DNA of 64,000 nucleotides from Nemopilema nomurai (lineage: Eukaryota > Cnidaria > Scyphozoa > Rhizostomeae > Rhizostomatidae): positions 1,116,001 through 1,180,000 of the forward strand of contig ML133426.1 in NCBI GenBank assembly GCA_003864495.1, read 5' to 3'. The first letter of the stretch is position 1. Each line of letters begins with the position of its first letter. The position numbers were made by a program, and so were the translations under genes. Shown here in pieces: positions 8,352 through 61,758 of the stretch. Below the pieces are notes generated by a model. That model saw only the letters and a program-made list of their open reading frames with translations. It did not search any database and was not told the DNA's origin.

Positions 8352-9501
8352 GCTGACCCGGTGGTGTTGCTGTGCTGTTGTTTTTCTATGTTTTCGATTT
8401 TGTACTAAATTAAAGTTGACTGTATCAATATTTATAAGAGTATGGACATTTTGTTGACTTGATCGTTTTGATATCTATTGTTGTATTGGGTTTTAATTCT
8501 TCGTTGCTTTTACTAAAATGATATTTATTCAATCAGTTTGGTGAATTTTGTGTTATCATGTAGGATCTTTATGTTGCACATTGGCCAGGAGAAATGAGGT
8601 GGGATTTGTCGCTTAGAATCCCATGAATGGACCTGTTATTCAATTTTTTCTCTTGGTATTTGAGAACTAAAACGAAAACGTGTCACGAAAGCTCCATTGG
8701 GAAAGCAGATTTTCGGGCCTAAATTCGAGAACCTTAGAACAGTTTGACCACGGAAATTTCCAAGAGAAGCAGTTTTGAGTGCCAGTATGCTGTCTCCTTT
8801 TAAGTGCCAGTTTGCTCGCTGCTGTTTCTTTCATTTTGTCTGACATCCATCACTTAAAGCTTGATGCAACTGCATATCAAAATACATATACGGATCATCT
8901 CAGTGACGGAGTAGATCACATTCTCCCTTACTCAGTCATGTAGAATCAGAGAACTAGTAGAGTCATGGGTTTTAGTGACTTAATTTATTCGTTTTTTCAG
9001 CTCTACTTGTTGTAATTGCTGTGCATTTATAAAAGATTATGAGAAATTAACTTGGTTTAACTAGGCCACATTCTAACTTTATGGAGGAATGCCACAGCTT
9101 CATGATAGAGGAGATGTCAAGCTTCAAAGAACTTAATCGATTAAGTCTCTGTTTAGGGGGGGGGGGGGTTGTGCTGAAGAGGATGAGAATAAAAACAATA
9201 TTAGTCGACAATTTATGGCTATGATCACAGCTATTGTGAAGAACGTAGTATTTGCAGTCATTATTCCACAGGACTAGCTAAGCTGACCTGCATCGACTGC
9301 AGATAACCCATTATGCATGACATTACAGTAGGTTAAGGATGTGTAAAAAATTTCAGTGAAAGGGCTAAGTGTTTAATGTAGATAGGCACTTGCAAGGGGG
9401 CGGTTGGTATGGAATGGAATGGCCCAAATAGTCCATCCATTTTCTGTTATCTGGGTCAGAACGAGGTTTCTCCAAGCGAGGTTCTGGAAAACATGTTAAA
9501 C
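8352..9501. other. Intergenic between the membrane-protein gene and DDX49
   Basis: No gene seen. It contains an uninterrupted run of G near 9158-9168. The DDX49 promoter should lie at its right end. An in-frame upstream ATG for DDX49 exists at 9409. Confidence 0.4.
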
Positions 9502-12500
9502 ATGGCGACGGACTCGACGTATCGAGAGTTTCGGCTTCTCGGTTTAAAAAACTGGTTGATAAAGCAGTGCAAGGAAATGGGTATAGTGAGTCCGACAGAG
9601 ATACAAAAGAACACTATTCCTGAGATACTTAAGGGCAGAAACTGTATTGGCTGCGCCAAAACTGGAAGTGGAAAGACAGCGGCCTTTGCCTTACCAATTC
9701 TTCAAAAGCTTTCCGAAGATCCGTTTGGCATCTTTGCCCTGGTTCTGACGCCAACGAGGTAAGCAGATTAACTGGTTTTGACACCAAAAATGCTTTATAC
9801 TATAATTGTAACTTGGATCTATAAACGTGGGAAGAATGATCTTTTTTCTTCTTTTTGAAGCCGCAATCGTGGAGCTCGAGTTTGTAGCTACAATCCTGGC
9901 CAAAAGATAGTGGACTGGCTGGCAAATTGCCGCCTTTTTAAAAAGATACACTCCCACCCCCCACAAGCAATGTTGAGATGCTTATTTCTACTCATTTCGG
10001 TAACTGATACTCTGGTATTTTCCAAAAAACCAACATTGCTGCAGGGGTGGGGGGTTTCTATACCATTTTCGGGATAAAATTGCAATCTTAGTGGTTTTTT
10101 TCTCCAGTCCACTAACCTTTTGGCCAGGATTGTCCTATGTAGCGGCAAAAAGGGGCATGCAAAGATTTGGGCCAATACACACTCAGATACTGTGAAATGT
10201 TGTCGGCATGTTTGCTTTTACCTCTATTTGTATAACGAGTGACTTGAATGCAAGTGTTGAGGTTTAAAAGATTTTCACATTCGAGGGGGTGGGGGCGGGA
10301 TTTTTGGGGTTTATAGGGTTTATAGGTGATATAAATAAATAAACTGGAACTACAACTAACATGTGTTTATGTGTCTTCTAGAACTATGTATAAGAATCAA
10401 AATTCGCAATTTGGAATTTTTAACAGTAAACCTAACTATACGCATGCGCTAATGTATAATGCTGGTAAAAGAAGCCGTTTGCACCGTAATTGGAAAATGA
10501 TTACGAGTTACCACGAGTTACCAACGAGTTACCGAACGAGTTACATTATACATTTACAAAGCTCAGTATGGATGTGAACGAGATACCAACGAGTTACCAC
10601 TTTCTTTATAAAATAGAATATATATATATTTATATAAAAAGTCATGGTAACTCGTGGTTTTCCCATATAAAGCCACTATTAGAAATGGTAACCCGTTATG
10701 GTAACTCGTTGGTGACTCGTTGGTAACTCGTTGGTAACTCGTGACAATTTGGAAATTACACATCGCTACCGCTCATTATCAGCTCTGCAAAGCAGCGAGG
10801 ACAACTCGGAATGTTTTTTTGTTCATCTGCTGGTATCTGATGGGTAAACTCAAATATTCTCCACCTAACAGCCATCATTCCATTCTCTTTCTCGTCGGAG
10901 GTATTCTCTCGTCATAGTGCCAAATAGCAAAGTCTGAAGCAAAACGCGTTGCGCACGCTATTTAACCCATACCAACCAATGATTTATAGCTAATTGACTA
11001 GGCAGGACCCCAACATCTATATTTCCCATGATAATTATGTACCCACCGCGCAGAGAACTATAAATCTTATTAATGTAGGCAAACATGCCGCGTCTCCTCA
11101 GATTTACTACGTCAGGTGCAGCATTTTGAATTTTTGAATTTTCATGAAGATTTAACACATATTACTCTAAAAGACCGACTTCCTAGTTTTTTAGGATTGG
11201 CGCCCATTTCTAGACCCCTAATAGCCCTTTCCGATACCCAATAAACCGCTATGATGGATTTTCATTTTCCTTCAAAATCGGACAATCCTGGCCAAAAGAT
11301 AGTGGACTGGCTGGCAAATTGCCGCCTTTTTTAAAAGATACACTCCCACCCCCCACAAGCAATGTTGAGATGCTTATTTCTACTCATTTCGGTAACTGAT
11401 ACTTGGTATTTTCCAAAAAACCAACATTGCTGCAGGGGTGGGGGTTTCTATACCATTTTCGGGATAAAATTGCAATCTTAGTGGTTTTTTTCTCCAGTCC
11501 ACTAACCTTTTGGCCAGGATTGTCCTATGTAGCGGCAAAAAGGGGCATGCAAAGATTTGGGCCAATACACACTCAGATACTGTGAAATGTTGTCGGCATG
11601 TTTGCTTTTACCTCTATTTGTATAACGAGTGACTTGAATGCAAGTGTTGAGGTTTAAAAGATTTTCACATTCGAGGGGTGGGGGCGGGATTTTTGGGGTT
11701 TTAGGGTTTATAGGTGATATAAATAAATAAACTGGAACTACAACTAACATGTGTTTATGTGTCTTCTAGAACTATGTATAAGAATCAAAATTCGCAATTT
11801 GGAATTTTTAACAGTAAACCTAACTATACGCATGCGCTAATGTATAATGCTGGTAAAAGAAGCCGTTTGCACCGTAATTGGAAAATGATTACGAGTTACC
11901 ACGAGTTACCAACGAGTTACCGAACGAGTTACATTATACATTTACAAAGCTCAGTATGGATGTGAACGAGATACCAACGAGTTACCACTTTCTTTATAAA
12001 TAGAATATATATATATTTATATAAAAGTCATGGTAACTCGTGGTTTTCCCATATAAAGCCACTATTAGAAATGGTAACCCGTTATGGTAACTCGTTGGTG
12101 ACTCGTTGGTAACTCGTTGGTAACTCGTGACAATTTGGAAATTACACATCGCTACGCTCATTATCAGCTCTGCAAAGCAGCGAGGACAACTCGGAATGTT
12201 TTTTTGTTCATCTGCTGGTATCTGATGGGTAAACTCAAATATTCTCCACCTAACAGCCATCATTCCATTCTCTTTCTCGTCGGAGGTATTCTCTCGTCAT
12301 AGTGCCAAATAGCAAAGTCTGAAGCAAAACGCGTTGCGCACGCTATTTAACCCATACCAACCAATGATTTATAGCTAATTGACTAGGCAGGACCCCAACA
12401 TCTATATTTCCCATGATAATTATGTACCCACCGCGCAGAGAACTATAAATCTTATTAATGTAGGCAAACATGCCGCGTCTCCTCAGATTTACTACGTCAG

Positions 12501-15500
12501 GTGCAGCATTTTGAATTTTTGAATTTTCATGAAGATTTAACACATATTACTCTAAAAGACCGACTTCCTAGTTTTTTAGGATTGGCGCCCATTTCTAGAC
12601 CCCTAATAGCCCTTTCCGATACCCAATAAACCGCTATGATGGATTTTCATTTTCCTTCAAAATCGGACAATCCTGGCCAAAAGATAGTGGACTGGCTGGC
12701 AAATTGCCGCCTTTTTTAAAAGATACACTCCCCACCCCCACAAGCAATGTTGAGATGCTTATTTCTACTCATTTCGGTACTGATACTTGGTATTTTCCAA
12801 AAAACCAACATTGCTGCAGGGGTGGGGGGTTTCTATACCATTTTCGGGATAAAATTGCAATCTTAGTGGTTTTTTTCTCCAGTCCACTAACCTTTTGGCC
12901 AGGATTGTCCTATGTAGCGGCAAAAAGGGGCATGCAAAGATTTGGGCCAATACACACTCAGATACTGTGAAATGTTGTCGGCATGTTTGCTTTTACCTCT
13001 ATTTGTATAACGAGTGACTTGAATGCAAGTGTTGAGGTTTAAAAGATTTTCACATTCGAGGGGGTGGGGGCGGGATTTTTGGGGTTTATAGGTTTATAGG
13101 TGATATAAATAAATAAACTGGAACTACAACTAACATGTGTTTATGTGTCTTCTAGAACTATGTATAAGAATCAAAATTCGCAATTTGGAATTTTTAACAG
13201 TAAACCTAACTATACGCATGCGCTAATGTATAATGCTGGTAAAAGAAGCCGTTTGCACCGTAATTGGAAAATGATTACGAGTTACCACGAGTTACCAACG
13301 AGTTACCGAACGAGTTACATTATACATTTACAAAGCTCAGTATGGATGTGAACGAGATACCAACGAGTTACCACTTTCTTTATAAATAGAATATATATAT
13401 ATTTATATAAAAAGTCATGGTAACTCGTGGTTTTCCCATATAAAGCCACTATTAGAAATGGTAACCCGTTATGGTAACTCGTTGGTGACTCGTTGGTAAC
13501 TCGTTGGTAACTCGTGACAATTTGGAAATTACACATCGCTACGCTCATTATCAGCTCTGCAAAGCAGCGAGGACAACTCGGAATGTTTTTTTGTTCATCT
13601 GCTGGTATCTGATGGGTAAACTCAAATATTCTCCACCTAACAGCCATCATTCCATTCTCTTTCTCGTCGGAGGTATTCTCTCGTCATAGTGCCAAATAGC
13701 AAAGTCTGAAGCAAAACGCGTTGCGCACGCTATTTAACCCATACCAACCAATGATTTATAGCTAATTGACTAGGCAGGACCCCAACATCTATATTTCCCA
13801 TGATAATTATGTACCCACCGCGCAGAGAACTATAAATCTTATTAATGTAGGCAAACATGCCGCGTCTCCTCAGATTTACTACGTCAGGTGCAGCATTTTG
13901 AATTTTTGAATTTTCATGAAGATTTAACACATATTACTCTAAAAGACCGACTTCCTAGTTTTTTAGGATTGGCGCCCATTTCTAGACCCCTAATAGCCCT
14001 TTCCGATACCCAATAAACCGCTATGATGGATTTTCATTTTCCTTCAAAATCGGACAATCCTGGCCAAAAGATAGTGGACTGGCTGGCAAATTGCCGCCTT
14101 TTTTAAAAGATACACTCCCACCCCCACAAGCAATGTTGAGATGCTTATTTCTACTCATTTCGGTACTGATACTTGGTATTTTCCAAAAAACCAACATTGC
14201 TGCAGGGGTGGGGGGTTTCTATACCATTTTCGGGATAAAATTGCAATCTTAGTGGTTTTTTTCTCCAGTCCACTAACCTTTTGGCCAGGATTGTCCTATG
14301 TAGCGGCAAAAAGGGGCATGCAAAGATTTGGGCCAATACACACTCAGATACTGTGAAATGTTGTCGGCATGTTTGCTTTTACCTCTATTTGTATAACGAG
14401 TGACTTGAATGCAAGTGTTGAGGTTTAAAAGATTTTCACATTCGGGGGGTGGGGGCGGGATTTTTGGGGGGTTTATAGGTGATATAAATAAATAAACTGG
14501 AACTACAACTAACATGTGTTTATGTGTCTTCTAGAACTATGTATAAGAATCAAAATTCGCAATTTGGAATTTTTAACAGTAAACCTAACTATACGCATGC
14601 GCTAATGTATAATGCTGGTAAAAGAAGCCGTTTGCACCGTAATTGGAAAATGATTACGAGTTACCACGAGTTACCAACGAGTTACCGAACGAGTTACATT
14701 ATACATTTACAAAGCTCAGTATGGATGTGAACGAGATACCAACGAGTTACCACTTTCTTTATAAATAGAATATATATATATTTATATAAAAGTCATGGTA
14801 ACTCGTGGTTTTCCCATATAAAGCCACTATTAGAAATGGTAACCCGTTATGGTAACTCGTTGGTGACTCGTTGGTAACTCGTTGGTAACTCGTGACAATT
14901 TGGAAATTACACATCGCTACGCTCATTATCAGCTCTGCAAAGCAGCGAGGACAACTCGGAATGTTTTTTTGTTCATCTGCTGGTATCTGATGGGTAAACT
15001 CAAATATTCTCCACCTAACAGCCATCATTCCATTCTCTTTCTCGTCGGAGGTATTCTCTCGTCATAGTGCCAAATAGCAAAGTCTGAAGCAAAACGCGTT
15101 GCGCACGCTATTTAACCCATACCAACCAATGATTTATAGCTAATTGACTAGGCAGGACCCCAACATCTATATTTCCCATGATAATTATGTACCCACCGCG
15201 CAGAGAACTATAAATCTTATTAATGTAGGCAAACATGCCGCGTCTCCTCAGATTTACTACGTCAGGTGCAGCATTTTGAATTTTTGAATTTTCATGAAGA
15301 TTTAACACATATTACTCTAAAAGACCGACTTCCTAGTTTTTTAGGATTGGCGCCCATTTCTAGACCCCTAATAGCCCTTTCCGATACCCAATAAACCGCT
15401 ATGATGGATTTTCATTTTCCTTCAAAATCGGACAATCCTGGCCAAAAGATAGTGGACTGGCTGGCAAATTGCCGCCTTTTTTAAAAGATACACTCCCCAC

Positions 15501-18500
15501 CCCCACAAGCAATGTTGAGATGCTTATTTCTACTCATTTCGGTAACTGATACTTGGTATTTTCCAAAAAACCAACATTGCTGCAGGGGTGGGGGGTTTCT
15601 ATACCATTTTCGGGATAAAATTGCAATCTTAGTGGTTTTTTTCTCCAGTCCACTAACCTTTTGGCCAGGATTGTCCTATGTAGCGGCAAAAAGGGGCATG
15701 CAAAGATTTGGGCCAATACACACTCAGATACTGTGAAATGTTGTCGGCATGTTTGCTTTTACCTCTATTTGTATAACGAGTGACTTGAATGCAAGTGTTG
15801 AGGTTTAAAAGATTTTCACATTCGAGGGGTGGGGGCGGGATTTTTGGGGTTTATAGGGTTTATAGGTGATATAAATAAATAAACTGGAACTACAACTAAC
15901 ATGTGTTTATGTGTCTTCTAGAACTATGTATAAGAATCAAAATTCGCAATTTGGAATTTTTAACAGTAAACCTAACTATACGCATGCGCTAATGTATAAT
16001 GCTGGTAAAAGAAGCCGTTTGCACCGTAATTGGAAAATGATTACGAGTTACCACGAGTTACCAACGAGTTACCGAACGAGTTACATTATACATTTACAAA
16101 GCTCAGTATGGATGTGAACGAGATACCAACGAGTTACCACTTTCTTTATAAAATAGAATATATATATTTATATAAAAGTCATGGTAACTCGTGGTTTTCC
16201 CATATAAAGCCACTATTAGAAATGGTAACCCGTTATGGTAACTCGTTGGTGACTCGTTGGTAACTCGTTGGTAACTCGTGACAATTTGGAAATTACACAT
16301 CGCTACGCTCATTATCAGCTCTGCAAAGCAGCGAGGACAACTCGGAATGTTTTTTTGTTCATCTGCTGGTATCTGATGGGTAAACTCAAATATTCTCCAC
16401 CTAACAGCCATCATTCCATTCTCTTTCTCGTCGGAGGTATTCTCTCGTCATAGTGCCAAATAGCAAAGTCTGAAGCAAAACGCGTTGCGCACGCTATTTA
16501 ACCCATACCAACCAATGATTTATAGCTAATTGACTAGGCAGGACCCCAACATCTATATTTCCCATGATAATTATGTACCCACCGCGCAGAGAACTATAAA
16601 TCTTATTAATGTAGGCAAACATGCCGCGTCTCCTCAGATTTACTACGTCAGGTGCAGCATTTTGAATTTTTGAATTTTCATGAAGATTTAACACATATTA
16701 CTCTAAAAGACCGACTTCCTAGTTTTTTAGGATTGGGCGCCCATTTCTAGACCCCTAATAGCCCTTTCCGATACCCAATAAACCGCTATGATGGATTTTC
16801 ATTTTCCTTCAAAATCGGACAATCCTGGCCAAAAGATAGTGGACTGGCTGGCAAATTGCCGCCTTTTTAAAAAGATACACTCCCACCCCCCACAAGCAAT
16901 GTTGAGATGCTTATTTCTACTCATTTCGGTAACTGATACTCTGGTATTTTCCAAAAAACCAACATTGCTGCAGGGGTGGGGGGTTTCTATACCATTTTCG
17001 GGATAAAATTGCAATCTTAGTGGTTTTTTTCTCCAGTCCACTAACCTTTTGGCCAGGATTGTAGTGTCTATCACATTTTTTTTATGCATTTAGAAAAAAT
17101 ATATTTCTCGGGGGGCCATGTTTTTTCAGGACTTATGATATTCAGAGGTGGTGAAAGTATCGGAACCTGGCAACGTAGTTCCCAGAAGTTTTCAGGGTGA
17201 AAATGTTAGCTAGAATTTTGTTGCAGCTGAACTTTTGAGACAAACCGTGATTCAGACTGAGATTATTGTAAGGACCAGAATATTTTTTCACAGAAAGTAT
17301 TTCTTGCACTATGTTATGAGAGTAGCATTGATCATATGTTTTGGTTAAATTGATTTGGTGCATGTTAGGACTCCATTCATTCCTTCTCCACTTGGCAGAT
17401 AAGGCTAATGTTGAATATTTCTGGTTAAATAAGATTACTCACTTACTTGCATTTATGCATCAAGGAAAGTTACATCTAAAACTTCTATCTAGGTCTACTT
17501 AGAGTCTCTTTCATATGAACGTATGATGAATTTCTTCAGCCAAATACAGTAACTGTTTTACTCTAAGAAATATATTTAGCTATAATGATACACAAACTTA
17601 CTATGTTGCTAGATTTTATGATGGTTCAGGAGCAAAATGTTCTTGCTGTATTTATTAAATGACTCAGTTTGCAATTGAATACCAAATAATCTACTGAGTC
17701 TCTGAAATGGGGCTCCATCAAATTTCAGGCAGCTGAATCAAAATTCTGTCAATTAAACCATTTTTTATAATCAGCTATAAATTGGCAGAGCTATCAACAA
17801 TCCCTGTATTGTTCAAGACACTCATTATAAGATGTGTCTCTACCATGCTCCCTCCTTTAATTTTCTTCTTGAGGAAGATCAGCCAAGGAATGGTTTTTGC
17901 CTTAACATCTATGTTGTGGCTCCAATAATGTCTTTAAATCATATTTGCTTTCCTGAAGTGATTAAAGACAACAAAACTTTCAATATTGGCAAATAGAGAT
18001 ATAAGCACATATAGAAAGTTTATTTTTTTACCCTGTACATTCTTGCAGATAGTTTTGTGGTGGATACTTAGGTTCCCAGAAAGAAAAATTTTTTCCACCT
18101 CTGAGGATATTCCATCAGTAAAATCAAAGGCTCAATTAATGTGTGTGCAAAAGAGATAAGAACCTCAAGTAAGCATTTATAGAAATAAATATGCTTGCTG
18201 GTGTGGAATAGTTTGAGAGTTGAACATACTCTCTCCTTTTGAAAGCCAGCAAATGTTAGAAATTGTTTTGCTTTGCACCCCAGAGAAAATTGAGTACCAA
18301 TTTTGACCTAGCTCTTGAGAACTTAATTTTACCACATCTTTTCAATTGGTGCTATTCTATTTTCTGTCAGTGTTTTTACTATTTTGCTTCAGTTCTTTGC
18401 ATCTGTTAGATAGACACACTTTAATTTTTGCCCTTCAAATTTTCTTCCCTTTGTCTGTTTCCTCTGAACACAAGGATTGATATTCCCAACAATCTTCAAG

Positions 18501-20901
18501 TGATCAATCACTCTTTTTCTAGATTTATGTTTAGTTCTCCCAGGAAAAACCCTTTTCAATGTTGCTTCTTCAATACTTGACAGGATACACTTGAATTATG
18601 AAACTTTTGTTTATACAAGATTTTCTCCATTTTCAAAACTTCTTCTAGTTTCAAACATGGTATCATTATGTTTCTTATTAATTTGGCTATCAGAATGTGA
18701 AGAAATCGAAAATTGATGTTTTCATCCAAAAAAGGTTTACCGTAACCTTAAGTAACTGTGATTGAAACTATGAACAAGCCTTTGGTCACACAACTGTCAA
18801 GCAAATTTTTCACTATAGTGCTCATTATCAGCTCTGCAATCAATCATTTTAAATTGTTTTGAATGCAAGCAGGTATAATGGATCTTTTTCATGGATAGAT
18901 AGCTCTTTTAATAGCTGCAAATTAAATTGATTGGTTATTTAGTTAATTTTCTCTGATTTTTCTGCAGTGATGTGTCTTTTACTTTTTTCTTTTTATTTAA
19001 ATTTTGAACTTTGAACCCATTGCATTTTAGAGAGCTAGCCTTTCAGATATCTGAGCAGTTTGAAGCCTTTGGCAAGTCTATTGGACTCAAGAGTGTGGTT
19101 GTTGTTGGTGGAATAGACACTATGAAGCAATCAATGGCTTTGAGTAGAAAGCCTCATGTTGTCATAGCAACTCCAGGCAGGCTTGCAGACTTGCTGAGAA
19201 CCACTGACACATTTGCACTGGATAAAGTCAAGTTTCTTGTTCTTGACGAAGCAGATCGTTTGTTTGAAGAAAGTTTCTCAGTAGATTTAAATGACATTTT
19301 AGAAAATGTTCCAAAGGAAAGACAGACACTTCTTTTCACAGCAACATTATCTGACCCTATTAGGGCATTGAAGGATTACACTGAAAAAGTACCATTCTTC
19401 TATGAAGTCCAGTCAGAGTAAGTATTCTTCATTTGTATCAATAGTCTGCTAGAATAATGACATTTTGGTCAGTAACTACATTTTTTTAAAGCTGTGTGAT
19501 ACCATGCTTTCCCTGCCATGTGACATTCTGCCTTCTTCTGTATTTCATCCCTGATTGTTTGCATTTTATACAAAAATCTGTTTTTTTATGTCAAAAACAA
19601 AAATAATTTATATTTACAATAATAGCAAGACTTGTTTTCAGATATGAAAATGAAGTTAACCACTCGCACATAGGCCGCACCTACAATTTTGAGGGGGCCA
19701 ATTGTGGAAAAATGTGCAGCTTTTATTTCATTAACACCCAATCATGCCTCCTTGTTTCAACTGTCTTATAGTTTTTGAAGTGCAACCAGCTATTTTTTGT
19801 CAGCTTTTGGTCATTTTCTAACATTTGCATGTTCGGTGGAATATAAGACCCAAAGCATGAGGAAGTTTACACGTGAAAAATTCCTAAAAATTTGATCATT
19901 TCCATCATTTGTTTTCCTTGTTTTTTGTCTCTAAACTGTGTGAAGTTTTTTATAGAAAGCCATACGATTATTGTGACATGCCCAAATAACAACAAATAAC
20001 ACCAAATAACAAACGTTTTGACAATATAACTATCTGATTATATAATATAACATTTTGGCAAGATGCTGAATATTTTTATTGTTTTATTTATTTCACCATT
20101 TACAGTTTTAAATAAGGTCAATAGCCGAAAGTTTAGATACATCATTATGAAGATACACAAATGAAATTGTTTCAACACTTTAGGCAACACTGCCTCTGGG
20201 GATGAAGCAAGTTATTCTTTATTGTATGTTTATGTTCCAGCGTTGCAACTGTGTCTGAACTGGACCAAAGATACGTTCTTGTGCCACCTGTAATGAAAGA
20301 TTCAATGCTAGTCTACATTCTCAGGGAGCATTCGGAAGAAAAGTCAGTGATCGTTTTTACCAGCACTTGCCGGAACTGCCAAGCGCTTTCACACATGCTC
20401 CGAAAAGTGGAACTTCCATGCGTGGCACTTCATTCGCTGATGTCACAAAATGACCGTCTATCAACTCTAGCGCGATTCAAAGGAGGTATAGTCAAGATAT
20501 TGGTTTCCACAGATGTTGCTAGTCGTGGACTTGATATCCCTGTTGTCGACATGGTCATAAACAGCAATGTTCCCGCGAACCCAACAGATTATATTCACCG
20601 CGTGGGTAGAACAGCAAGAGCTGGTCGAGGCGGCAAAGCAGTCACGCTTATGACGCAGTACGACATCGAAAGAATAAAAGCGATCGAAGAAAGAATCAAC
20701 ACAAAGCTGGAAGAGTTCGAAACGAACGAGAACGAGGCTGTCAAGTTGCTGAAGGCAGTGGCCGTCGTCAGACGAGAAGTGGAACTGAAATTGACTGACA
20801 GTAATTTTGGAGAGAAGAGGGAAATACACAAGCGGAAGAAGAAGATCCTAGAAAAAAGGGCTGCAAAGGCTAAAAAGAAAAGAAAAGTTAACGGAGAGTA
20901 G
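9502..20901 (+). CDS. DDX49: DEAD-box ATP-dependent RNA helicase DDX49 (Dbp8 type)
   Basis: Three exons, 9502-9758, 19031-19417 and 20241-20901, give 434 residues with consistent phases. DDX49/Dbp8 helicases act in nucleolar pre-rRNA processing. Motifs in order: Q-motif region (PTEIQ), Walker A AKTGSGKT near residue 55, PTREL across the exon 1/2 junction, VGG, TPGRL, DEAD (about 158-161), TAT (motif III, usually SAT), [18 protein letters not shown] and [13 protein letters not shown]. The C-terminal tail is short and lysine/arginine-rich ([17 protein letters not shown]); the protein is about 50 residues shorter than human DDX49. I chose ATG 9502 ([10 protein letters not shown]) because the DDX49-like part starts just after it; ATG 9409 would add 31 residues. 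A polyadenylation signal AATAAA lies at 21104. The oddity is intron 1, 9.3 kb long and mostly filled by the tandem array at 9890-17062. Confidence 0.95.
9890..10133. mobile_element. Palindromic MITE-like element P, copy 1 of 6
   Basis: The ends are inverted repeats: the left end ACAATCCTGGCCAAAAG plus TAGTGGACTGG recurs reversed at the right end (CCAGTCCACTAA...CTTTTGGCCAGGATTGT). A second inner inverted pair is formed by C-rich CCCACCCCCCAC...GCAATGTTG and its near-complement CAACATTGC...GGGGTGGGG. Other copies lie at 11282-11523, 12667-12908, 14054-14294, 15432-15674 and 16819-17062. Internal copies are bounded by GG...CC, whereas the outer ends of the whole array read CT at the left and AG at the right, so the outermost borders are distinct from the internal joints. 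No clear target duplication. Superfamily not recognised. Confidence 0.7.
10502..10743. repeat. Inverted block of GAGTTACC / GGTAACTC motifs (unit 1; repeated in every array unit)
   Basis: The left side carries about five copies of ACGAGTTACC or a close variant (10502-10600). The right side carries about seven copies of its reverse complement GGTAACTCGT (10644-10743). The centre is AT-rich (TATATATATATTTATATAAA), so the block can fold into a long cruciform. Clustered short motifs in opposing orientation resemble subterminal transposase-binding repeats. The same block recurs near 11890, 13275, 14655 and 16035. Confidence 0.8.
17063..19030. other. Right part of DDX49 intron 1
   Basis: AT-rich non-coding DNA. 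The one notable piece is 18820-18839, a 20-base exact match to the array spacer (GCTCATTATCAGCTCTGCAA), with weaker similarity continuing to the right. No gene seen. Confidence 0.5.
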
Positions 20902-23655: not shown

Positions 23656-25199
23656 ATGAGGGTCCTGTTTCTCATTGCAATTTTGGGGACGGCTTTTTGC
23701 CTTGCACAAGGTGAGTTTAAAAGTGCTTCTTTATACGAAATCGTTGCTGTTTCCGGCGCTTGACGTTTATTTCTTTAAACTGCGAGAATGAACTGCGGAT
23801 AAACTTGGCAAGTGAATGTCTTGTGATTTTGCTGTAATATGGATACGAAACTGTCCAAACAGGATGATGGCGATTGTCAAAAGCTTGTAATACATGCAAT
23901 GTCATAGGCACATTTACTGCACTAAATGCCTTAACAAAGCCAAGCCAACGCCATCGGTCCCTTCCTTTGCAAAAACCGTACAAGTAGATTTTCACAGATT
24001 CTTACAGGTATCTCTCAATCATGTTGCCTATGAAACGCTTCTCGGAATCTTCGTCTGCATTTTCTTGGTATACGCATGCTTGGCTTTCAATGCGAACAAT
24101 GAACATAATTTTTTGTCCAAATACATTTGAAACTGTTTTTTCGGCAAAATTAAGTTTCTCAAACGGTTTCTTTGCCAACCAGGCGAAGAGGCTGCTCCAA
24201 CAGAAACAGAAGTTGCCTCTGCGGAGCAAAAACAAGACCAAGTGAGCGAAGATGCACCAGCCGCAAAGGAGGAGCAGCCTGCTGATGATAGCGAAGATGA
24301 TTCCTCTGAGGATCAAAATGAAGAGGAAGAAGATCCTGAAGCAGACATGGAAGAGGCAGAAGAGAATGAGGTTGCAGATATGCCTGAAGAAGAGGATCCA
24401 AGCGAACTTGATGGTTGGTCCTTTGACGGTTGCTTTCATTGTGTTTCTCTGAACTTTGTTCATGTGTCAAATTTTGTCAATCTTCTGTTGTCATAGTGCC
24501 TGAAACCCTCAATAGAAAGACAACCCATTTTTAAGCATTAGGCAGCTGAGTTATTTCTGTCCATTGAGTTAACCGCTTTCGTACACACAATTTCTTCCAT
24601 TCTTCTGCCTCAAATACCAAGCCCTGATTTCCTTTATTTCCGAAGGTGCCTTTATTTTCCTTTATTTTTTGGCAAAGATTGCAGACTTGTTGGACGCTCT
24701 CTCGCCTACATGCATCTTGCTTTTAAGTCGACCAACATAGAACACGGCTTTTAAGCTCAACAATGAGAGACACTGTTTTATCACCATTTCAGAGCCAGCT
24801 GGTAATGACGTCAGTGATTCCCAGTATTACCGTCACAAGAAGTGCCGTTGCAAACCGTGCAGATGCCACCGTTACAAGCTCTATTACAAGAAATATTACA
24901 GCAAATACTACAACCTCTACTACAAAAGGTACTATCAGGCCTATTACAAGAAGTATTACAGCCGATATTACAAGCTGTATTACAAACGGTACTACAGCCG
25001 ATACTACAAGCTGTATTACAAACGGTACTACAGCCGATACTACAAGAACTACTTCAACCGGTATTACAAGAAGTATTACAGCAACTACTACAAGAAGTAT
25101 TACTACGGCTATTACAAAAGATACTGGAGCAATTACTACAAGAAGTACTACGGAAAACGATGCCACCGTCGCTATCCAAAGGGAAGATGGGGAAAGTAG
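23656..25199 (+). CDS. Secreted acidic / Tyr-Lys-rich repeat protein, copy 1 (230 aa)
   Basis: Coding exons 23656-23710, 24183-24413 and 24793-25199 total exactly 231 codons. A non-coding exon probably ends at the donor GTAAGT at 23421 and joins at 23647. Residues 1-18 are a signal peptide (MRVLFLIAILGTAFCLAQ). Residues 19-95 are extremely acidic, about half Asp/Glu, with EEEEDPEADMEEAEE. Residues 113-120 are a tight cluster CRCKPCRC. Residues 126-217 are 23 uninterrupted tetrads of the form Tyr-Tyr-X-X (X mostly K, R, S, N), with an overlying 12-residue period in the middle (YYSRYYKLYYKR three times). The tail is basic with one Cys (RCHRRYPKGRWGK). I know no named family with this design. 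The intron 2 donor, GTTGGT, is weak. Likely roles, by inference, are a tyrosine cross-linked matrix, glue, skeletal or capsule protein, or a cationic antimicrobial precursor with an acidic pro-part. Confidence 0.85.
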
Positions 25200-34522: not shown

Positions 34523-35753
34523 TCACTTTACCCAATTCCCTTTTGGATAGCGACCGTAATAGCATCGTTTTCCGTAGTACTTCTTGTAGTAATTGTTCCA
34601 GTATGTTCTGTAATAGCCGTAGTAATACTTCTTGTAGTAGTTGCTGTAATACTTCTTGTAATACCGGTTGTAGTATTTCTTGTAGTATCGGTTGTAGTAC
34701 CGTTTGTAATACAGCTTGTAGTATCGGCTGTAGTACCGTTTGTAATACAGCTTGTAGTATCGGCTGTAGTACTTCTTGTAATAGGCCTGATAGTGCCTTT
34801 TGTAGTAGAGGTTGTAGTATTTGCTGTAATATTTCTTGTAATAGAGCTTGTAACGGTGGCATCTGCACGGTTTGCAACGGCATTTCTTGTGACGGTAATA
34901 GTAGGGATCACTGACGTCATTACCAGCTGGCTCTGAAATGGTGATAAAACAGTATCTCGCATTGTTGAGCTAAAAAGCCGTGTTCTATGTTGATCGACTT
35001 AAAAGCAAGTTGCATATAGAAGAGAGAGAGCATCCAACAAGTCTGCAATCTTTGCCAAAAAATAAAGGAAAATAAAGGCACCTTCGGAAATAAAGGAAAT
35101 CAGGGCTTGGTATTTGAAGCAGAAGAATGGAAGTAAGTTGTGTATATAAAAGCCGTTAACTCAATGGACAAAAATAACTTAGCTGCCTAATGCTTAAAAA
35201 TGGGTTGTCTTTCATTATTGAGGGCTTCAGACACTATGACAACAGAAGATTGACAAAATTTGACACATGAACAAAGTTCAGAGCAACAAAATGAAAACAA
35301 CTGTCAAAGGACGAACCATCAAGTTCGCTTGGATCCTCTTCTTCAGGCATATCTGCAACCTCATTCTCTTCTGCCTCTTCCATGTCTGCTTCAGGATCTT
35401 CTTCCTCTTCATTTTGATCCTCAGAGGAATCATCTTCGCTATCATCAGCAGGCTGCTCCTCCTTTGCGGCTGGTGCATCTTCGCTCACTTGGTCTTGCTT
35501 TTGCTCCGCAGAGGCAACTTCTGTTTCTGTTGGATCAGCCTCTTCTCCTGCATTAATAAGAGGGTTCGAACGTACTGAAAAATTTGGTTTTTCTCATTGG
35601 TGGATTTGCAAAGGCTTCTAACTTTTGTTTTAGTAAAACACGTTTAATAGATTTTTCTGTCACTCGAACAAAAAATTCATGCAAGTAAACAAACTCACCA
35701 TGTACCAGGCAAAAAGCCATGCCAAGAACGGCAAGGAGGAATAGCGCCTTCAT
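34523..35753 (-). CDS. Secreted acidic / Tyr-Lys-rich repeat protein, copy 2 (231 aa)
   Basis: Coding exons 35753-35699, 35547-35317 and 34932-34523 total 232 codons with the stop. The structure matches copy 1: signal peptide MKALFLLAVLGMAFCLVH, acidic region, CRCKPCRC cluster, Tyr-Tyr-X-X tetrads and a basic tail (KRCYYGRYPKGNWVK). Exon 2 differs from copy 1 at 3 of 231 bases. Exon 1 differs at 15 of 55 bases, changing 7 of 18 residues. Intron 1 is shorter (151 against 472 bp) and not obviously alignable, whereas intron 2 is clearly homologous. A non-coding exon ends at donor GTAAGT (36137-36132) and joins at 35761, nine bases before the start codon. The two genes converge, with GPCR, SPIDR and GON7 between them. 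Function unknown; the same inferences apply as for copy 1. Confidence 0.85.
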
Positions 35754-54100: not shown

Positions 54101-57100
54101 TTATTCAGTGACAGTCTTCTGGACCGTTGATGACGTAGGCATGACACTGGACTCCCATCCTGGCCTCACGGAGCTCTGCTTGAACACTTTGCCAATAAAG
54201 GGTAACTCGAGGTTCCGCCTGAACTTCGCATGCAGGAACGAGTAAATGATAGGGTTGATCAAGGTCGACATCTTGGCGAAAATGGCGGACACGGTTCCCA
54301 GGTGTTTTGGCACAGACGACACGTGCTTGAAGTAGGCCGCCCAGAAGGAGATGACGGTGTAGGGCGTCCAGGAGGCGACGAAGGCAGTGGACATGACAAT
54401 GGCTAGCTTCGTGTGTCGCTTCTCGGCACGCACGGTCTCCATCATGGCTTCCATTTGCATGCCGGCCATTTCGATGGCACGCTTCTGCATCTGACGGAGC
54501 TCCCTCTTGACACCGATGAAGGCAAACAGCATGATCCCCACTGGCAGCACGTAGCAGAAGACGTACAAGGCAGCGACGTAGCTCTGGTCACTGGCAGACT
54601 TACCGTTCCAGTTAATGGAACATCGCAGGTTGTCGTCCTCCAGTGCGTAGCTGGACCAGCCACAAAATGGAACGACCGCCCAGAACAGTGAAAAGAGCCA
54701 CGGGAAGGCGTTCGATGCCACCACCATCTTCTGGTTTCCATGGTACACTGTTGAGAAGTAGGGCTTGCAGATCGAGATGTAGAGGTCAAAGGCGACAACT
54801 GCCAGGTAGTTTATAGACACCAGTCCAAGAAATGTTATGAAGAACCCGGAGGCCTACAAAGGAAGGGCAAGCGTTTAGCACGGGCTATGCAGATATTTGG
54901 GTGCTTCGATTACTAGGATGCTTTCACAAGAAAGGGCAAGGTACAAACATAATTTTGAAAAAAGCTTCGACATTGCGTCAAAGGTTTTTTAAACTCTCTT
55001 ACTAGTTACTACAACGATTTCCTACTGGCAATGGAGGCTCGAAGTCTCCCTGGTCTTACAGAGGACGCGAAGTGTCCAGTTAACGGCTTTAACAAAAACG
55101 TTTTGGAGTTTCCACAGGAATTCCTGCATTAAAAGCGGTTTCTTGTGCTTCAGAACTGTGGTATTTTTGAAACATGAAACCAAACATGAAAGGTTCTCAA
55201 AATTCTGTTTTTCTTCAGTTAACTGTGCTGCATGTCACTTTTTAAAAGCAGGCTATAAAAGGAGCGCTTCTACCCCAACCCCCCTCCCGTTTCCTCATAA
55301 ATAAATGAATTGCATAGTCAATAGAGACATCATAGTTGCTTCACATTGCTTTTGTGGCGGGGCAGCATGAGCAGAGGCGGGTTAGGAATCAGTGTAGGAG
55401 GACTAAATTTGTATTAATTAGCATAATAATTATCACGTTAACCTCGTTTCCACCCCAATGTTGGTGGAGACAAAATAAGAAAATCGTCAAATGGAGGTAT
55501 TTGTTGCCGAAAATGTTTATTCGAAGTTTTGCGGCCCCTTGCTTGTAAAAAGCATATTTAGCTAATTTTTTTCTAATTTGGAAAATGAATTGTATAACTC
55601 GAACCAGAAACTGGGGGCTCACTTCTTGGTGTCCAAGCTTAAAGATCATATGCGACCATATAGCAGACTGCACTTAAAGGAACTTTTCTTTTGTCAATAA
55701 TTTCGAGAAAGCCGATTTGAGTGGCACTTCGAAACGGGAGGCTTAGACCTTCCATTACATGACCCGACTTCCCGATGTAATGATTCCAGAAGGTTTTAAA
55801 CTTTAAATGAGACCAAGCAGGGGGTTCATTTAGGCCTTTCCTGGTATACCAAAATATGCTTCCTGGCCTCCGTACTTTCGGTATCTAATGCAAAAATGCA
55901 ACATTACACTTTAAGTTACTCTCCGCTTTCATAGTTGTTTATTGGACGGGTGTTTCTATGTATAAAAGGGCGTTGGTCACGTTAACAGCAAAAGAAGAGG
56001 GCGTGGCTACCAAAAAAATTTTTGATTTGTGATTCATATCGCTCTAGACCTCCGTCTTTTTACTCATTTACAACCGTCAAAAAATATCCTGAATCCGCTC
56101 CTGTGTCTACATGCCTGAGTTGAGACCTTGGCTATTCGATGGATGTGAAGTTTTGTGACGTTTGATAACGTAGGTTCTACAGTGTTATTGACTTAGAGAA
56201 TGATATCTCAACACTTGATCATTAGTTGTCGCCAGTTGCGAACTGGACCATCGGGTAACGAGGGAAGTTCTCGATGGGCACTGGCCAAGGAAGAATTTTA
56301 AATATTAATATTAATATAAAATCTTAAATCTTGAAATATTGCAGTTCTGCGTCCGTTACCCGGGAAAGGCATCTAGAGCGATATGAATCAAGAGAAAGAG
56401 AGTTATATCGCATTCATTTACCAAGCATTTCGAGGCAAGAAGTTCAAAAGTTATCTCTTGAGAAGAAGCTCGTAAGAATTTTCTAGGCAAAGTGGCCTTT
56501 CATTGAGCATTTATAGGCTTAACAGCACAATGATATCATGTCAAATCATTGGCATATCCACTGAATGAAATATACGCAATGAGGAAGACAGAAAATACGT
56601 GCGCCAGAGGAAGGTCTTTGGCTTACCCGCATGGGACTTAATCATCATTGGTGAACGAGTCAAGTGACTCTCTCGGGAGCATTTCTAAAAGGCCCGTCCA
56701 ATGAAAATCTCTTGAAGATTACTTTTTGGGGAAACTCTCTTTGTTCACAATTTATGGTGACTACGCGTAAATTCTTTGGCGATGTAAGCACTTTGAACAC
56801 GAAGACCTCCCCATGAAAGTAAACATGACGAGGTCTCCTTTGAAATAAAGCAAAAATTCTTATGTGTTCCTTCCATTCAAAAGAACTTTATGTCGGAGAG
56901 AATGAATATAAAAACATGTTGCATTGAATGGCTGAGCAGAAAACAAGAAGAGATCTCATCACAAATCATAAGATTCTTCACTAAATACAAGATACCAACA
57001 GCAAATTGGGTTCCACCAATGGACTTTGGTCCGGGGACATAATTTCACTGGTAATTTGTTTATGAGTGGAAAACAGCCCATAACAAACAGTTGAATGTGT

Positions 57101-61462: not shown

Positions 61463-61758
61463 CCAACCTCAGTGTTCCAGCCTCAGTGTTCCAGCCTCAG
61501 TGTTCCAGCCTCAGAGGTCCAGCCTCAGAGGTCCAGCCTCAGAGGTCCAGCCTCAGAGGTCCAGCCTCAGTGTTCCAGCCTCAGTGTTCCAGCCTCAGAG
61601 GTCCAGCCTCAGTGTTCCAGCCTCAGTGTTCCAGCCTCAGTGTTCCAGCCTCAGTGTTCCAGCCTCAGTGTTCCAGCCTCAGTGTTCCAACCTCAGTGTT
61701 CCAGCCTCAGTGTTCCAGCCCTAGAGTTCCAGCCTCAGTGCGCCAACCTTAGTGTTCC
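61463..61758. repeat. 14-bp minisatellite, about 21 copies
   Basis: The unit is CAGCCTCAGTGTTC, with a variant CAGCCTCAGAGGTC. Variant order (T = TGTTC, A = AGGTC) is T3 A4 T2 A1 T8, then degenerate copies, so blocks of like variants sit together. The array starts and ends at GCGCCAACCTCAG / GCGCCAACCTTAG. Because 14 is not a multiple of three and the unit lacks stops, three overlapping open frames of 105-111 codons arise; none is a credible gene. Confidence 0.95.

Follow-up and report, generated by a model that had tools for sequence, protein, structure and literature searches.

A putatively secreted protein of the scyphozoan Nemopilema nomurai, encoded twice in the 64-kb window (the whole stretch of DNA analysed), joins an acidic block to a basic array of Tyr-Tyr-x-x tetrads of opposite and similar charge. 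Our tentative reading, to which we give somewhat less than an even chance, is that this charge-balanced block protein condenses, is cross-linked via tyrosine and forms an extracellular material. The gene structure, the constraint on the tyrosine frame, the charges and a set of database proteins of the same layout bear on this reading and on its rivals.

Two inverted copies of a three-exon gene

The first copy, hereafter copy A, occupies positions 23656-25199 (+), from the ATG at 23656 to the end of the stop codon at 25199, and is split into three coding exons exactly as the first-pass annotation had placed them: start, stop, phases and splice sites all fit. Coding exon 1 (23656-23710, +; 55 nt, ending in phase 1) carries the ATG and a hydrophobic, signal-peptide-like leader followed by a GT donor; the leader was judged by eye and agrees with the signal peptide proposed earlier. 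Coding exon 2 (24183-24413, +; 231 nt between an AG acceptor and a GT donor) encodes the acidic block, and coding exon 3 (24793-25199, +) the Cys cluster, the Tyr-Tyr-x-x array, the basic tail and the stop. The junctions are of phase 1, and all four splice sites are GT or AG. The predicted product has 230 residues, in which leader, acidic exon, HKKCRCKPCRCH cluster, tetrad array and basic tail follow one another.

These parts correspond largely to those that had been claimed. The polyacidic segment is there, Asp and Glu making up 46% of an 85-residue block that holds no Tyr, with exon 2 alone contributing 231 bases. The Cys cluster was located ahead of the array, as HKKCRCKPCRCH at residues 110-121 (24834-24869, +; pattern match at residue 110), and is a candidate disulfide or metal site. 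The array itself spans residues 126-217 (24882-25157, +). The count of 23 tetrads proved right; 21 start with Tyr-Tyr, one with Tyr-Phe and one with Tyr-Trp. The basic tail follows the array, as claimed. The array is built of twelve-residue repeats with a 36-base period, and as it contains 19 distinct 12-mers, it is no perfect DNA minisatellite.

A second complete copy (copy B, 231 residues), overlooked by the first-pass annotation, lies inverted at 34523-35753 (-). Its coding exons encode a signal-peptide-like leader (35699-35753, -), the acidic block (35317-35547, -), which differs from that of copy A by 3 bases over codons 19-95, and the Cys cluster, array, tail and stop (34523-34932, -). 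The 23 tetrads of its array (34568-34843, -) comprise 21 exact Tyr-Tyr, one His-Tyr and one Tyr-Trp. The two copies share a tract of 94.7% identity, 24180-25197 (+) against 34525-35550 as inverted arms. This tract takes in intron 2; it sets in 3 bases upstream of exon 2 and runs into the stop codon. Over the 2.5 and 2.4 kb compared, the sole match beyond the tract at an E threshold of 0.001 is a stretch of 66 bases around exon 1 (77%), and 14 of the 19 leader codons differ, 7 of the 14 synonymously. The simplest account of this pattern would be that the gene was duplicated long ago and that gene conversion has recently acted on its homologous core, the conversion being probable. The conversion looks as if bounded by the coding edges. 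Between the copies, dN/dS is 0.32 over the whole coding sequence and 0.63 in the array, where 9 codons differ (7 nonsynonymous and 2 synonymous changes); on so few changes, recent constraint inside the array appears weak, which counts against the material reading.

The array of copy A is open in all three forward frames and in one reverse frame, so the tyrosine frame needs independent support; this openness is also what could be said for a different reading, that another frame is translated or that the array is a minisatellite open by chance and no protein of the tyrosine frame. We regard that reading as extremely improbable. Among single-base codon differences between the units of copy A, the synonymous share in the tyrosine frame is 0.68 against 0.15 expected (a 4.5-fold enrichment). 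The two remaining forward frames have shares of 0.11 (0.26 expected) and 0.48 (0.25 expected), or enrichments of 0.4 and 1.9; as pairs of repeat units are not independent, these figures are a contrast between frames and not a probability. The corresponding enrichments of copy B are 4.0 for the tyrosine frame, and 0.5 and 1.9 for its two forward alternatives. The minus-strand frames, scored for copy A only, give 3.0, 0.2 and 0.8, and the frame at 3.0 has stops within its first 20 codons. Moreover, in both copies the exons of the leader, the acidic block and the array are joined through their splice sites and phases. In the first Tyr codon of copy A, bases 1 and 2 are invariant in all 23 tetrads, while base 3 is C in 12 and T in 11. 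Judged from these codon patterns, the tyrosine frame is under constraint, with the Tyr pairs as the conserved element. The second Tyr codon of copy A is nearly always TAC (20 of 21), in contrast to the first (12 TAC, 11 TAT), a bias that protein constraint does not explain.

The surroundings of the two copies offer no functional hint. Ten open frames, selected from the 147 of at least 75 residues, were compared with Pfam; seven gave matches, to two 7TM receptors, a DUF4503 protein, an LSM protein, a Nop-domain protein, and the DEAD and Helicase_C parts of a helicase gene. One 7TM receptor exon (54104-54853, -) is presumably opsin-like, going by its motifs. Tandem units of ~1.39 kb (9890-17062) separate the DEAD part (9382-9759) from the Helicase_C part (20206-20898), four full copies being 99-100% identical to the first and two being partial; five of the units bear 11-base minisatellites in opposite orientations. 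A further minisatellite, with 21 copies of a 14-base unit, occupies 61463-61758. Rfam gave no match at the gathering threshold over the 64-kb window.

Relatives and the search for a named family

The assembly of N. nomurai (212.9 Mb in 226 contigs) was searched in six frames, and 150 of 283 candidates were scored, so that the counts are lower bounds. At least 14 places match, two of which are copies A and B. The other 12 regions were scanned for Tyr-rich open frames and yielded no basic Tyr-Tyr-x-x array, which speaks against a chance pattern; they were rejected as relatives, being low-complexity repeats or showing no open frame rich enough in Tyr to pass the threshold. The nearest of them (contig C51, L009, 3272-3538) is a Tyr-Phe-Ser-Thr repeat with the same four-residue period and without basic residues; a stop falls inside the match, and we read it as a minisatellite.

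Protein database searches, part of which scored 7,993 candidates sharing most words, returned at least ten proteins (P0001-P0010). Seven of them, the unnamed P0001-P0007, have a common architecture of leader, acidic block and basic Tyr-Tyr-x-x array. As in the window gene, their Tyr pairs are mostly four residues apart and the x residues are variable, with Arg and Lys; in contrast to the window gene, the acidic part of P0002-P0007 is rich in Gln and Asp. Inspection by eye of the nine proteins (copies A and B with P0001-P0007) showed (i) a Cys after the array in five of the seven database proteins, and in seven of the nine, (ii) a Ser/Thr/Ala-Gln step ahead of the basic part in eight, copy B being the one without it, and (iii) a Trp among the last five residues in six. 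When the exon 3 products of copies A and B were aligned with P0001-P0007, 13 columns were invariant, 12 of Tyr and one of Arg.

Whether this likeness reflects descent was approached through shuffled sequences, 300 for each protein from P0001 to P0007. No full shuffle reached the real alignment score for any of the seven. Shuffles of tetrad order reached it in 230, 5, 238, 126, 83, 9 and 136 cases, the real score being mildly unusual for P0002 and P0006 only and not for the other five. Shuffles of the acidic part did so in 27, 260, 259, 286, 21, 296 and 189 cases; the acidic parts of P0001 and P0005 weakly beat their shuffles and the other five of the seven did no better than theirs. With such tetrad-order and acidic-part scores, the architecture shared by the window gene and P0001-P0007 may come either from a common ancestor or from convergence. 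The three remaining proteins, P0008-P0010, which we read as probably bacterial, resemble the window gene in their Tyr/Arg-rich tails, whereas their N-terminal parts are unrelated; as the likeness is limited to the tail, it was read as convergence and they were dropped from later comparisons. The tail of one of them, P0009 (Pfam PF10609, PF01656, PF13614), is itself of the Tyr-Tyr-x-x kind, an indication that independent origins of the pattern are possible. Scans of prokaryote genomes (485 pattern matches) and of viral contigs (254) contained no relative.

No Pfam model scored above its cut-off for copy A or B, the best being BUD22 over the acidic part (18.4 bits, against a cut-off of 37), and none did for P0001-P0006. 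Among PDB sequences, nothing matched the window protein at E 0.001. The sub-threshold matches are to unrelated proteins (E 0.0076, 0.043 and 0.76, over residues 23-130, 65-158 and 63-104), the best being TFIIA at E 0.0076; they lie mainly over the acidic part, and one extends into the array. AlphaFold2, run on exon 3 with the nine-row alignment, predicted one long helix with a mean pLDDT of 54, a low-confidence model to be treated as unproven, and a PDB fold search with this model gave no match. Among the matches listed from the literature on tyrosine-rich proteins (coral, cnidarian, antimicrobial, podocyst and jellyfish), we recognised no paper as describing the protein. The first-pass annotation knew of no named family with this architecture, in line with the Pfam and PDB searches, neither of which placed the protein in a described family. 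No named family was found by these searches, and the way in which the protein works probably resembles known kinds.

Charge balance and the possible roles of the protein

When each chain is split at its charge minimum, a procedure that biases the result towards opposite signs but not towards equal amounts, the acidic and basic parts carry -37/+41 in copy A and -38/+39 in copy B. The values for P0002 to P0007 are -38/+30, -33/+29, -29/+27, -33/+28, -32/+24 and -30/+24, and the net charge lies between -7 and +5 in eight of the nine proteins. The exception is P0001, at -21/+57 (net +37), which remains unbalanced when its doubtful tail is left out (basic part +49); this imbalance counts against a charge-balanced material. 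Tyr makes up 39% of the basic part in copy A and 41% in copy B, and is absent from the acidic part. The charge balance agrees equally with a material and with the pro-part of an antimicrobial precursor, the two roles that the first-pass annotation had suggested.

On the latter reading, which we consider rather unlikely and yet the strongest of the rivals, the protein would be a cationic antimicrobial or membrane-active effector whose acidic pro-part masks the Tyr-rich polycation until it is cut after secretion. A leader, an acidic part and a cationic C-terminal part of opposite, similar charge are what it calls for, and the precursors of defensins, arminins and damicornin have the same layout. 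The Ser/Thr/Ala-Gln junction before the basic part, present in eight of the nine proteins, could be a processing point; however, the furin-type pattern RX[KR]R is absent from copies A and B. Six of the nine (copy A and P0002-P0006) end in Gly or Gly-Lys and could be amidated, whereas copy B, P0001 and P0007 do not, and C-terminal amidation was discarded as a trait of the whole group, since copy B ends in NWVK. Further points against an antimicrobial are that a strict tetrad array of 92 residues is long for a peptide antibiotic, that the helix modelled for exon 3 is of low confidence, and that copies A and B and P0001-P0006 match no antimicrobial Pfam family. If it were true, the protein would be an unusual Tyr-rich antimicrobial precursor.

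The twelve-residue repeats of copy A could also suggest a precursor of many short peptides released by dibasic cutting, in the manner of a neuropeptide precursor. Dibasic positions are frequent in the basic part of some of the proteins (12 in copy A, 11 in copy B, 22 in P0001 and 10 in P0005), but few in others (3 in P0003, 5 in P0006, 4 in P0007, and 7 each in P0002 and P0004), and as neither copy A nor copy B has Asp or Glu in its basic part, there are no acidic spacers between units. We hold such a precursor to be very improbable. A component of the wall, tubule or matrix of the nematocyst, the stinging capsule, is improbable to a lesser degree: the cnidarian host, the leader, the Cys cluster and the cross-linkable residues would suit it, while the Cys pattern of minicollagen domains (C...C...C...C...CC) is absent from both copies.

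The length of the array, its strict period and the absence of a furin-type motif lead us to prefer the cross-linked material over the antimicrobial, without certainty. From the parts of the protein, their charges and the constraint on the tyrosine frame, all read in the DNA, we infer secretion, condensation, oxidation and the tissue of use. The acidic half would pair with the basic half and so keep the protein soluble, or condensed as a droplet, inside the secretory granule. Once the protein is released, its paired tyrosines would stick to Lys and Arg through cation-pi and stacking contacts, and would then be fixed by oxidation, as dityrosine or DOPA, with the Cys residues contributing disulfide or metal links. 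The same genome contains 14 matches to tyrosinase-domain exons on five contigs, each above the curated cut-off and two with an internal stop. Such genes make the DOPA route possible and do not demonstrate it; that tyrosinases have other roles, for example in pigment, counts against taking them as support. Copies A and B match no glue or cuticle family of Pfam, a further point against a material.

The first-pass annotation had implied an anthozoan host, which is very probably wrong. Two published primers for the CTRL-1 gene of N. nomurai (PMC4963838) match the assembly exactly, on a single contig and strand and 2.3 kb from each other, which agrees with a gene of 2434 bases; with up to 2 mismatches allowed, the first primer has no second site and the second has five, each with 1 or 2 mismatches. 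No COX1 match was obtained in the assembly, and the absence of a GFP-family match is uninformative, since the control genomes had none either. With a scyphozoan host, a role in coral skeleton was rejected. The likeliest scyphozoan uses would be in the cement by which polyps attach, in the covering of polyps and podocysts, or in mucus. Jellyfish blooms are believed to be fed by polyps and dormant podocysts, reportedly also in N. nomurai (Kawahara et al. 2012); we know of no protein named for the covering of polyps or podocysts. A bolder proposal, which we find doubtful, is that the genes represent an animal family not previously described, in which an acidic exon charge-matched to a Tyr-pair polycation would make a one-protein coacervate setting by tyrosine cross-linking, and that this would be the first molecular candidate for scyphozoan cement or cyst covering. 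If true, one small protein would unite the two components of an underwater adhesive or capsule polymer, and its very simple four-residue code would lend itself well to testing how Tyr-Lys/Arg contacts and matched charges drive condensation and setting.

Comparison with known systems

Three kinds of known protein invite comparison. Minicollagens differ from copies A and B, which lack their characteristic Cys domains. The cnidarian precursors of the arminin and damicornin type have a leader, an acidic pro-part and a cationic C-terminal part, the same as in the window protein; unlike them, the window protein carries a 92-residue Tyr-pair array in its cationic part, and it matched no Pfam family. 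Mussel byssal (foot) proteins and the two-component cements of worms are likewise secreted, Tyr-bearing and often cationic; to our knowledge, neither group has strict Tyr-Tyr-x-x tetrads or a charge-matched acidic exon. The Pfam and PDB scans gave no match that would link the window protein to the mussel DOPA adhesives. Several byssal proteins of the quagga mussel, according to PMC6474901, have blocks of opposing pI at their two ends, a likeness to the charge blocks of the window protein that speaks for the material reading.
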